DNA of 35,205 nt from an uncultured Micrococcales bacterium (GTDB taxonomy: Bacteria > Actinomycetota > Actinomycetes > Actinomycetales > Microbacteriaceae), in the NCBI GenBank assembly GCA_903880095.1, contig CAIRNX010000035.1, positions 1 through 35,205 on the forward strand, in the 5' to 3' direction. The translations under genes and the position numbers were made by a program. Under the pieces are notes generated by a model that saw only the letters and a program-made list of their open reading frames with translations, was not told the DNA's origin and made no database searches. How positions within the stretch are numbered: position 1 is the first letter of the stretch; every line of letters starts with the position of its first letter. Of this stretch, positions 7,883-32,558 are shown one piece after another.

Positions 7883-9196
7883 TTAGGTTAGCTCGAACTG
7901 ACCGCCCTCGATCTGACCCTGCTTGCGGTACATGTCGAGTTTGGTTCGGGTGTCTTGAATGTCTAGGTTGCGCATGGTCAGCTGACCGATTCGGTCTGCT
8001 GGGCCAAACGCCGAATCCTCGGTGCGTTCCATCGATAGCTTCTCTGGGTGGTAGCTGAATCCTTCACCCTCGGTGTTCACGATGGTGTAGTCGTCTCCTC
8101 GGCGAAGTCGAAGAGTAACCGAACCGTTTACGGCAGAGGCGACCCACTTCATGAGTGCTTCGCGAAGCATTAGCGTCTGCGGGTCTAGCCAACGACCTTC
8201 GTAAAGCAAGCGGCCCATGCGGCGACCCTCAGAGTGGTACTGCGCGATGGTGTCTTCATTGTGAATTGCGCTCAGCAAACGTTCGTAGGCGATGTGAATC
8301 AAAGCCATGCCTGGTGCTTCGTAAATGCCGCGGCTCTTGGCTTCGATGATTCGGTTTTCGATCTGGTCGCTCATACCGAGGCCGTGGCGTCCACCGATCT
8401 TGTTGGCTTCATACATCAACTCGACGGCGTCGCTGAATTCCTTGCCGTTTATGGCAACCGGGCGACCCTGTCGGAAGGTTACGGTGACATCCTCTTTTTC
8501 GATCTTCACCGAGTCATCCCAGAATTTGACGCCCATGATTGGCTCGACAATTTCAAACGACGTGCTGAGTTCTTCAAGGCTCTTGGCCTCGTGAGTTGCG
8601 CCGAGCATGTTTGCGTCGGTTGAGTAAGCCTTTTCGGTCGATGCGCGATAAGGCAACTTGCGCTCTTGAAGCCACTCAGACATTTCGTGTCGGCCACCAA
8701 GCTCGTTCACGAAATTTGCGTCTAGCCAAGGTTTGTAGACGCGAAGGTTTGGGTTTGCAAGAAGACCGTAACGGTAGAAGCGTTCGATGTCGTTGCCCTT
8801 GTAAGTTGAGCCGTCGCCCCAAATCTCAACGCCGTCTTCGCGCATAGCGCGCACCAGTAGCGTGCCGGTGACTACGCGGCCAAGGGGAGTGGTGTTGAAA
8901 TAAACCTTGCCCCCGGTGCGAATGTGAAATGCTCCACAGGCGATGGCTGCCAGGCCTTCTTCGACCAGTGACTGACGGCAGTCAACTAGACGGCCGGCTT
9001 CGGCGCCATAGACGGTTGCGCGGTCAGGGATCGAGTCGATGTCGTCTTCGTCATACTGACCAAGGTTGGCGGTGTAAGCGAAAGGGATTGCGCCTTTTTC
9101 GCGCATCCAGGCAACGGCAACCGAGGTATCGAGACCACCAGAAAACGCGATGCCGACTTTTTCGCCGACTGGGAGGGAAGCTAGAACTTTAGACAC
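7883..9196 (-). CDS. argG: argininosuccinate synthase (long, E. coli-like type)
   Basis: This 437-residue enzyme joins citrulline and aspartate with ATP to give argininosuccinate, the penultimate step of arginine synthesis. The pyrophosphatase-type P-loop FSGGLDTS lies at 18-25, followed by [12 protein letters not shown] near 41-52. Length and motifs resemble the E. coli form of about 447 residues rather than the form of about 400 residues found in many actinobacteria. The start is GTG (9194-9196). No Shine-Dalgarno sequence is present; instead TAGCCT ends exactly six bases upstream, suggesting a separate leaderless transcript in addition to read-through from the putrescine genes. No other arginine-biosynthesis gene is in the window. 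Confidence 0.95.
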
Positions 9197-9202
9197 ACGT
9201 CT

Positions 9203-9208
9203 AGGCTA
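9203..9208 (-). promoter_or_regulatory. leaderless-type -10 element for argG
   Basis: TAGCCT on the minus strand is followed by six bases and then the argG GTG. With a usual spacing of 6-7 bases, transcription would begin at or next to the start codon. It sits in the 26-bp gap after aguA. A -35 is not evident. Confidence 0.5.
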
Positions 9209-9222
9209 CCCAACTTTTGAGC

Positions 9223-30535: not shown

Positions 30536-32546
30536 GTAGCGGCTCAATTGAGGCCTCAGAGCCTCTGAAGTCCTTGAATAACTCCATTGCATCTTTCGTG
30601 CCACCCCGCGATAGCAGGGTATCTCTGAAATGCTGGCCGTTCTTTCTAGTTAATCCGCCATTGTTCTTGAACCAGTCGACTGTTTCGGCGTCGAGAACTT
30701 CAGACCAGATGTATCCGTAGTAACCGGATGCATAGCCACCCGCGAAGATGTGCGTGAAGTAGGTGCTGCGGTAACGGGTCGGAACCGGTGCAAAGGTTAG
30801 GCCGTAGGTCTCGATGGCGTTAGCTTCGAACTCTTCGACAGAGCCGACCTTCGCGCTCGAATCGAGCTCGTGCCAAGCGAGGTCGAGAATCGCTGCCTGG
30901 AGGTACGAGGTGGTTGCGTGACCTTGGTTGAAGGTTTCGGTTGCATTCAGGTTGTCGATCCACTCCTGAGGCAGAGCCTCGCCGGTTTCGAAGTGGCGAG
31001 CGTAGTTGGTAACAACCTCTGGCCAAAGAATCCACATCTCATTGACCTGCGAAGGGAACTCGACGAAGTCTCTAGGCGTAGAAGTGCCTGAGAAGCGTGG
31101 GTAGGTAACGTTTGAAAGCATGCCGTGAAGTGCGTGGCCGAACTCATGGAACAAAGTCGTAGTTTCGTCGAAGGTGAGGAGTGTCGGTTCACCTGCAGGT
31201 GGCTTTGGAACATTGAGGTTGTTGACGATGATCGGCTTCTGGTTGAACAGGTGGTTTTGATCAACCAAGTTGTTCATCCAGGCACCTCCACGCTTCGATT
31301 CGCGCGCGTAGACGTCGAACACGAATAGAGCCAGCTCGCTGCCATCTTCGTTGAAGACCTCGAATACGCGAGCGTCAGGGTGGTAGGCCACAAGGTCCTT
31401 ACGCTCTTTGAAACTGATTCCGAATAGCTGGTTGGCAGCGAAGAACACACCATCGGCCAACACGCGTTCAAGTTCGAAATACGGCTTGAACTTTGCGGTG
31501 TCGACGTTGTATTTCTCTAGGCGAACCTTTTCGGTGTAGAAATCCCAGTCCCAGCTTTCAACGGTTCCTTCACCCATAGCTAGGGCGATGTCGGCAGCCT
31601 CAGCGCGGGCATTGCGAACAGCTGCCGGAGCGATTCTGCGAAGCATGCCATGCACGTTGGTTGGGTTGCCGGCAGTCTGGTTGCTAATCACGTATTCGGC
31701 GTGGCTTTTGAAGCCGAAAAGTTCGGCACGCTTGGCTCGCAGGCTGACGAACTCTTTGACGATGCCTCGAACGTCGTTGTCGTTGTCGCGACCGCCCTTG
31801 ACCAGTGAGTTCTTCATGATTCGTTCGCGAAGTCCGCGGTTGGTTAGCGATTCGAGTAGCGGGTGACCGGTGAAGTTGACCATCGGAATGACCCACTTGC
31901 CCTCGAGGTCTCGGTCTTTTGCCGCGGCGGCCGCGGTCGCGATCTGGGTGTCGGTTAGGCCGTCAAGCTCGGCAACTTCGTCAACCACGATGGCTAGGTC
32001 GTTGGCATCAGCCAAAACCTTTTGCCCGTACTCGGTCTCAAGGGTTGAAAGGCGCTCGTTGTAACCCTTGAGTGTTTCGCGTTGGTCTTCGGTTAGATGA
32101 GCACCGGCGTGGATGAAGTCGCGGTAGTAGCGCTCGAGAAGGTAGGCAGACTCGGCGTCGAGACCGAGGTTGTCGCGGCGTTCGTAAAGGTCTTTGATTC
32201 GAGCCCAGAGCTGCGGGTTGAGTTGAATGGCATCGGTGTGCGCCGCTAGCTTTGGCGCGATCTCGGCCTCAATCGCGTCAAGCTCTGGGCTCGTGTCGCT
32301 TGAAGATTTGTTGAAGAAAACCAGAAGCATGCGCATCAGAACCTGACCGCTCAACTCCATAGCAACGATCGTGTTTTCGAAGGTCACGGTGTCTTGATCG
32401 ATGATGTTGCGAACCTCGGCCAACTGCAGCGAGCAGCCCTCATAGAAGGCTGGCAGATAGTGCTCGTCGCGAATCTGCGCGAATGGCGGCAGCTCGTAAG
32501 GAAGGTCTGAACGGTTAGCGAATGGGTTCTGTGGGGTCCAAGTCAT
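30513..32546 (-). CDS. dcp: M3-family zinc metallopeptidase (peptidyl-dipeptidase Dcp / oligopeptidase)
   Basis: This 677-residue cytoplasmic enzyme degrades short peptides. The thermolysin-like zinc site HEFGH is at 467-471, with the downstream acidic ligand in the FVEFPSQVNEMW segment near 495-506. The N-terminal LPYELPPFAQIRDEHYLPAF and the C-terminal GGYASGYYGYIWSEVLDAE are typical of Dcp rather than PepF. The ATG (32544-32546) has no Shine-Dalgarno site; TAGGCT ends six bases upstream and overlaps the valS stop codon, suggesting an own leaderless transcript as well as read-through from valS. With PepN, it could complete breakdown of peptides released by ClpP. Confidence 0.94.
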   Translation of the reverse strand: MTWTPQNPFANRSDLPYELPPFAQIRDEHYLPAFYEGCSLQLAEVRNIIDQDTVTFENTIVAMELSGQVLMRMLLVFFNKSSSDTSPELDAIEAEIAPKLAAHTDAIQLNPQLWARIKDLYERRDNLGLDAESAYLLERYYRDFIHAGAHLTEDQRETLKGYNERLSTLETEYGQKVLADANDLAIVVDEVAELDGLTDTQIATAAAAAKDRDLEGKWVIPMVNFTGHPLLESLTNRGLRERIMKNSLVKGGRDNDNDVRGIVKEFVSLRAKRAELFGFKSHAEYVISNQTAGNPTNVHGMLRRIAPAAVRNARAEAADIALAMGEGTVESWDWDFYTEKVRLEKYNVDTAKFKPYFELERVLADGVFFAANQLFGISFKERKDLVAYHPDARVFEVFNEDGSELALFVFDVYARESKRGGAWMNNLVDQNHLFNQKPIIVNNLNVPKPPAGEPTLLTFDETTTLFHEFGHALHGMLSNVTYPRFSGTSTPRDFVEFPSQVNEMWILWPEVVTNYARHFETGEALPQEWIDNLNATETFNQGHATTSYLQAAILDLAWHELDSSAKVGSVEEFEANAIETYGLTFAPVPTRYRSTYFTHIFAGGYASGYYGYIWSEVLDAETVDWFKNNGGLTRKNGQHFRDTLLSRGGTKDAMELFKDFRGSEASIEPLLKRRGLL

Positions 32547-32552
32547 GAATCG

Positions 32553-32558
32553 AGCCTA
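32553..32558 (-). promoter_or_regulatory. leaderless-type -10 element for dcp
   Basis: TAGGCT on the minus strand begins with the three bases of the valS stop codon and ends six bases before the dcp ATG. The same hexamer and spacing occur at msrA, clpX and the EamA transporter gene. Confidence 0.5.

Follow-up and report, generated by a model that had tools for sequence, protein, structure and literature searches.

The window analysed here, the whole 35,205-nucleotide contig CAIRNX010000035.1 of an uncultured freshwater Micrococcales bacterium (G000:C35, one of the 42 contigs of a 1.435 Mb genome), contains seven genes in which a hexamer of the form TANNNT ends six bases before an ATG or GTG start codon. 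An initial annotation of this DNA had singled out the seven arrangements, and all of them were recovered in our analysis. On the reverse strand, argG (argininosuccinate synthase; 7883..9196; Pfam PF00764/PF20979) is preceded by TAGCCT (9203..9208), six bases before its GTG at 9196-9194. A forward-strand gene for a phosphodiester glycosidase (NAGPA) domain protein (12677..14212; PF09992) follows TACCCT (12665..12670) at the same distance from its GTG at 12677. An EamA-family transporter gene (14196..15125, reverse strand; PF00892) and msrA (15148..15669, forward strand; PF01625) diverge from each other, each with the box TAGGCT, at 15137-15132 and 15136-15141, respectively. The gene for a tesB-like acyl-CoA thioesterase (18050..18931, reverse strand; PF02551), called tesB below, has TAAACT (18938..18943) six bases before its GTG at 18931. 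Finally, TAGGCT precedes both clpX (28114..29388, forward strand; PF06689/PF07724), where it lies at 28102..28107, six bases before the GTG at 28114, and dcp, which encodes an M3 family peptidase (30513..32546, reverse strand; PF01432) and has its box at 32553..32558. With d as the number of bases between the end of TANNNT and the first base of the start codon, d = 6 at all seven genes, and those other than tesB are putatively leaderless.

Genes were called in a sample of the genome made up of the window and 400 kb of other sequence from the same genome (435 of 1,435 kb), using a coding-potential gene finder that is blind to the sequence upstream of starts (383 genes, 93% of bases covered). 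For the NAGPA-domain gene and msrA we adopted the starts of the initial annotation, our own caller having placed them downstream; by our start calls alone, a d = 6 box precedes 5 of the 32 window genes. With the adopted starts the count is 7 of 32, for which the binomial P is ~4e-9 at a per-position TANNNT rate of 0.0077. Taking AGGA, GGAG or GAGG in the Shine-Dalgarno stretch upstream of a start as the mark of a Shine-Dalgarno sequence, we found it in none of the seven genes, as opposed to 11 of the 25 other window genes, in agreement with the earlier description of the seven as lacking a purine-rich ribosome-binding site.

Placement, composition and conservation of the box

The distance count that the initial annotation had suggested, run on the 435 kb sample, gave a clear excess at six. 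TANNNT stood at d = 6 before 49 of 381 called starts (binomial P ~3e-43), while every other distance from 0 to 40 yielded between 0 and 8 occurrences (2 at d = 5, 8 at d = 7, 7 at d = 8 and 8 at d = 9). The signal was restricted to the reading frame: near starts, a d = 6 TANNNT preceded 58 of 770 in-frame ATG or GTG codons and 0 of 483 out-of-frame ones. Taken together, the frame control, the distance profile and the binomial test rule out chance placement. The box was found at 45 of 253 starts without a Shine-Dalgarno sequence, compared with 4 of 128 starts that have one, and the 49 genes begin with ATG (34) or GTG (15). As a separate observation, 28 of these 49 genes have A as the first base of the second codon, and G is absent (0/49) at base +10 (with the start codon's first base numbered 0), perhaps a feature of leaderless starts.

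We also examined the composition of the box. TAGGCT is the commonest hexamer at d = 6 (11 of 49, against 74 of the 3,314 TANNNT in the sample as a whole), which bears out its earlier description as a preferred -10 in this organism. Of the d = 6 boxes, 69% have G at position 3 and 67% have C at position 5, giving TAGNCT, and TAGGCT is 10.6-fold denser in the stretches that separate called genes than inside the genes themselves. A set of 55 candidate boxes located 18-59 bases upstream of Shine-Dalgarno genes showed a weaker form of this preference for G and C (38% and 35%), this set being diluted by chance matches. As the initial annotation had remarked, no -35 is apparent: a TTGACA-like hexamer (two mismatches at most, spacing 15-19) accompanies 8 of the 49 boxes, where shifted windows predict ~10. 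Upstream of the d = 6 box, the information content of a position nowhere exceeded 0.19 bits, and an extended -10 was rejected as a hidden element, with TG at the extended position in only 1 of 49. The TAG of the dcp box doubles as the stop codon of the upstream gene (pepN in the initial annotation), and in the same way the gene upstream of argG ends on the TAG of another TAGGCT (9225-9220).

To follow the box through the genus, we aligned start regions of orthologues, leaving out rows with only weak, partial or distant matches and including the genome itself in all counts. The rows used, out of the genomes that matched, were 27 of 33 for clpX, 20 of 29 for argG, 25 of 26 for tesB, 13 of 18 for dcp and 7 of 15 for the NAGPA-domain gene. 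The msrA search matched 35 of 40 genomes, 20 of them in the genus, of which 18 were used; G011 and G024 were set aside because the alignment or the contig did not show the start directly, and the 15 matches from outside the genus (a single row per genome, with one exception) did not enter the counts. TANNNT stood at d = 6 in 24 and at d = 7 in 3 of the 27 clpX rows, as seven different hexamers within diverging surrounding sequence; at d = 6 to 8 in all 20 argG rows, as four hexamers; and at d = 6 in 17 of the 18 msrA rows, the other one having d = 7. For dcp, the distance profile comprised the 10 rows aligned from residue 1, with three further rows that aligned only from residue 6 omitted, and put 3 of the 10 at d = 6 and 7 at d = 7. 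In the clpX, argG and dcp profiles, counts at all other distances up to 39 were at most 3. The NAGPA-domain gene, with d = 6 in 5 of 7 rows, one of them doubtful, is weaker evidence.

An exact spacing of six is a property of this genome, and the rest of the genus and the order use six or seven, or up to eight at argG. A box and a spacing that stay constant while the middle bases drift form the pattern that would be expected of a promoter box tied to the start codon. The second, uncoupled transcripts that the initial annotation had envisaged for argG, clpX and dcp are plausible, and the putative promoters are conserved in sequence. In eight genomes of the genus (G010, G011, G015, G020, G023, G024, G048 and G066; L280-L287) the argG search returned only a distant homologue of 31-33% identity, and in G020 this match contains two stop codons.

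Boxes shared by divergent start codons

The boxes of EamA and msrA are one ten-base palindrome, AGCCTAGGCT (15132..15141, both strands), a point absent from the initial annotation. Two TANNNT boxes on opposite strands have the central TA in common, and the gap between the two start codons (15126..15147) is 22 bp (6+10+6). The palindrome with both codons in place occurred exactly in 26 of 67 genomes of the genus, once in each, while a reversed-pattern control occurred in 0 of 67. At all 26 loci MsrA is encoded on one side, and the opposite codon opens a frame of at least 168 codons in 25 and of only 10 codons in G018.

Among 36 msrA loci in as many genomes of the genus, the gap was exactly 22 bp in 28, with EamA or an aldo/keto reductase as the partner, although this set is biased, in that 26 of the loci were brought in by, or also match, the exact palindrome pattern. 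In two others the gap was called as 17 because the caller chose an in-frame start farther upstream, and measured from the following start it is 23; in the remaining six the partner start lies 37-51 bp away, and two of these partners are thioredoxins preceded by GAGG (assigned by Pfam for one). Of the 18 rows that were found by searching with MsrA as a protein, 10 have the 22 bp gap. In three of these ten the core has drifted, to ACTTTAGAGT, ACTCTAGGCT and ACCCTAGGCT, with ANNNTANNNT and the gap retained. The partners fall into three families (EamA, aldo/keto reductase and thioredoxin), and a quick MsrA tree requires 5 partner changes, but counting only its well-supported branches the minimum can be as low as one per group, which leaves the number unsure.

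A second symmetrical box lies between tesB and its divergent neighbor, a forward-strand gene (18952..19620) for a 222-aa protein with no Pfam match. TAGTTTA (18937..18943, both strands; form TANNNTA) overlaps the tesB box, and TAGTTT on the forward strand ends 9 bases before the ATG at 18952, which predicts a leader of ~3 nt (range ~2-4 nt). This mirror-image box had not been remarked on in the initial annotation. If transcription begins 7 bases past the box, the predicted starts of the two genes are ~18 bp apart. An orthologue of the 18952 gene adjoins tesB at 25 of 25 loci in the genus; TAGTTTA is exact at 21 of them, 8-11 bases before the orthologue's start, and is replaced by TAGTCTA in two and AAGTTTA in two.

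Of the 53 divergent pairs in the 435 kb sample, 12 had TANNNT 5-9 bases before both candidate starts, as against 0-3 pairs in seven other distance windows. The gaps of these 12 pairs are 16, 20, 22, 29, 29, 35, 38, 41, 46, 52, 82 and 188 bp, and only the three shortest have a shared or overlapping box. This spread of 16-188 bp rules out a single favored geometry for divergent pairs. The pair with the shortest gap we note separately: at G000:C1 114824-114845, two start codons 16 bp apart are served by overlapping TAAACT and TAAGTT, both at d = 6.

To look further than the genus, we scanned contigs from 84,980 species; the scan returned at least 117 palindrome stretches, and all 117 listed were used for frame counts. 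Among these listed matches, 78 belong to Actinomycetota, 3 of them cut by contig ends; open frames of at least 90 codons lie on both sides in 62 of the other 75 and on one side in 13. Outside Actinomycetota, or where the taxon is unassigned, both sides are open in 1 of 38 decidable cases (of 39). The msrA loci account for 18 of the 75 listed sites (17 two-sided), and 45 of the remaining 57 are two-sided as well. By BLAST clustering the 62 listed two-sided sites form 32 pair families, of which 11 occur at two or more loci, and a few may be chance. Five pairs could be named by Pfam, for example rsmI and a protein mannosyltransferase (Microbacterium), a nitroreductase and a rhodanese (Mycolicibacterium), and an NYN-domain protein and an amine oxidoreductase (Nocardioides). 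Within the order (198 genomes; this set and the phylum-wide draw below were limited to genomes at least 90% complete), ATG or GTG codons lying 3-10 bases from AGCCTAGGCT were at 6 (45) or 7 (31) in 76 of 102 cases, and among the 60 sites with a codon at 6 or 7 on one side, 16 had one on both, where ~6% would be expected (two positions in 32). The two-sided arrangement does exist outside the genus but is rare there. In a side observation, a contig titled Bifidobacterium breve, from a metagenome-assembled genome (MAG), and an Acidimicrobiia MAG (L130, L131) have near-identical start regions on both sides of the palindrome; the Bifidobacterium breve label is therefore probably wrong.

Interpretation and alternatives

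Our analysis establishes the position of the box, its enrichment, its frame dependence and its conservation. We consider it very likely (probability about 0.9) that the seven genes and their counterparts use leaderless transcription from a vegetative -10 box without a -35, with shared cores at divergent pairs; in this scheme, the sigma factor used, the points where transcripts start, the leaderless mode of translation and the competition between directions are predicted from sequence. The hexamers would be -10 boxes of the vegetative (SigA-type) RNA polymerase, holding nearly all of the promoter information, with the -35 unused. From a box ending six bases upstream, transcription would start on the first base (A or G) of the start codon and yield an mRNA without a leader, and the ribosome would initiate on the ATG or GTG at the 5' end of this mRNA with no Shine-Dalgarno sequence. 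Because TAGGCT on the opposite strand ends in TA, two boxes could overlap at TA as AGCCTAGGCT, and one such core would drive the two divergent leaderless genes EamA and msrA, with start codons 22 bp apart. TAGTTTA would be a second symmetrical core, common to tesB and the 18952 gene. Since a polymerase could occupy a shared core in only one orientation at any moment, each initiation event would be contested by the two genes. The initial annotation had taken the exact spacing as the mark of a leaderless class; the peak at six, the in-frame-only signal and the conservation in the genus uphold the class; most tesB rows in the genus, and the relatives with seven or eight bases, do not conform to the exact spacing.

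Several results weigh against this interpretation. A raw count of TANNNT-N6-RTG in the window gave 15 matches with 12.8 expected, and 25 of 100 shuffles reached 15; there being no excess, blind counting is uninformative, and what is unusual is the placement of the boxes on gene starts. The dcp box is absent in 3 of 13 rows, all three being the ones aligned only from residue 6. The tesB box is present in 25 of 25 rows (TAAACT in 23, TAGACT in 2), but an ATG or GTG stands at d = 6 in only 4, leaving 21 without one. The tesB promoter would accordingly be old and its leaderless use recent or local; tesB would be leaderless in only a few genomes and is the exception among the seven genes. Ten genomes from other families of the order, pooled, gave a weak signal of 9/436 in frame versus 2/346 out of frame at d = 6, with 7 in frame versus 1 out of frame at d = 7. 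As to the palindrome, AGCCTAGGCT occurs only once in the 435 kb sample of its own genome, and in the order the reversed control pattern is commoner than AGCCTAGGCT itself. There the number of sites is unusable as a measure of enrichment, and only the distance distribution counts as evidence. An even draw across the phylum found the two-sided palindrome in 6 of 296 genomes (the genome itself included) and the control in 2 of 296, which leaves phylum-wide abundance of the exact 22 bp form unsupported.

Part of this picture would also follow if the hexamers were -10 boxes but transcription began a few bases to either side, the genes having short leaders and other promoters upstream giving leadered transcripts. 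The variable spacing among relatives at argG (6, 7 or 8) and dcp (6 or 7), the 9 bases between box and ATG at the 18952 gene, and the many tesB rows with no start at six would all fit. The peak in the sample is sharp at six, with 49 starts against 8 at seven, as would suit a transcript start fixed on the first base of the codon, and we regard short leaders as unlikely. We give very little credence to the idea that the hexamer is a regulator binding site, or a sequence preference of start regions, in place of a promoter element. AGCCTAGGCT is a perfect palindrome of the sort bound by many dimeric regulators, and most of the genus rows read at msrA carry it without change; but some genomes carry ACTTTAGAGT, ACTCTAGGCT or ACCCTAGGCT there, the signal is spread over the genome sample and confined to the reading frame, and at clpX and argG the middle three bases vary while TA, T and the spacing stay constant, as in TANNNT -10 boxes.

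The two-sided palindromes might instead be unselected, chance by-products of a favored -10 and of the long open frames in GC-rich genomes. Their rarity in the even draw agrees with this, as do the shifted frames (+1/+2) at the listed Actinomycetota sites, which are open for at least 90 codons on both sides in 14 of 156, and the finding that only 3 of the 12 close divergent pairs with two boxes share or overlap a box in this genome. Yet both sides are open far more often in Actinomycetota than elsewhere among the matches listed, and the pair families listed there recur; the exact form is found in 26 of 67 genomes of the genus and occurs with different partners, and two-sidedness at the order-level sites exceeds expectation. 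We therefore view a chance origin as improbable, slightly more so than short leaders. Leaderless transcription from shared -10 cores could be extended into a wider proposal, which we hold only tentatively and at somewhat less than even odds: that Actinomycetota possess a compact two-way promoter consisting of a lone symmetrical -10, with divergent leaderless starts at six or seven bases and a gap of ~22 bp that would act as promoter and as start signal on both sides and persist although the partner gene differs between species, each initiation going in one direction or the other.

By themselves, the seven genes would add one lineage with an exact spacing and a TAGNCT preference, useful for the correction of start sites in small genomes of this type. 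The shared boxes would unite leaderless mRNA and promoter symmetry in a gap of ~20 bp, which leaves little room for a separate regulator site, and they make testable the question of whether polymerase direction alone could set the ratio of two proteins. Among the matches listed, the 32 pair families, 11 of them recurring, suggest repeated origin and retention of the arrangement. A shared box could also offer a very small part for two-gene expression.

Relation to known leaderless genes and bidirectional promoters

Leaderless genes are common in actinobacteria, as the initial annotation stated. Passages of PMC3160421 describe TANNNT ~12 bp upstream as a mark of leaderless genes in bacteria, above all in Actinobacteria. 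Mapped leaderless starts of M. tuberculosis are reported with TANNNT and without a -35 (in the relevant passages of PMC3898074), a 5'-terminal RTG is described as necessary and sufficient in mycobacteria (PMC4633059), and an excerpt of PMC12340547 reports the same leaderless mode in Deinococcus-Thermus. The genes studied here resemble those described in these passages in having TANNNT a few bases before ATG or GTG and no Shine-Dalgarno sequence (PMC3160421, PMC3898074, PMC4633059, PMC12340547), and resemble those of M. tuberculosis in lacking a conserved -35 (PMC3898074). For GC-rich groups, PMC3160421 reports little information in the three middle positions, unlike the TAGNCT found here. The sharp spacing at six, together with the TAGNCT preference, distinguishes our set from known leaderless genes.

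Bidirectional promoters arising from -10 symmetry were reportedly first described by Warman et al. in 2021. Two-way transcription from symmetrical promoters is treated in passages of PMC10268837 and PMC12825309, the former giving ~18 bp as the commonest spacing of starts. The loci described here are similar in that one near-symmetrical -10 would serve both strands, and TAGTTTA would give the ~18 bp arrangement. The predicted EamA and msrA starts, 23 bp apart with +1 placed by prediction, lie within the 7-25 bp by which the bidirectional class is defined in those passages, and key -10 positions overlap on both strands, as in that class, at EamA/msrA and at tesB/18952. The EamA/msrA core (ANNNTANNNT) differs from the 18 bp form (TANNNTA). 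Closely juxtaposed divergent promoters have been described in M. tuberculosis, including the prpD/Rv1129c pair, which is leaderless on both sides according to a figure legend in PMC3898074. Like that pair, the genes here are divergent neighbors, both with transcription starts (here predicted) at the start codon; unlike here, the legend reports no shared -10 hexamer (PMC3898074). Among the open-licence literature matches listed, we found no description of one -10 shared between two leaderless start codons. The leaderless class is thus already known, and the boxes shared from start to start are the new part: unlike in known bidirectional promoters, both products would be leaderless or nearly so, with start codons at a fixed distance from the core.

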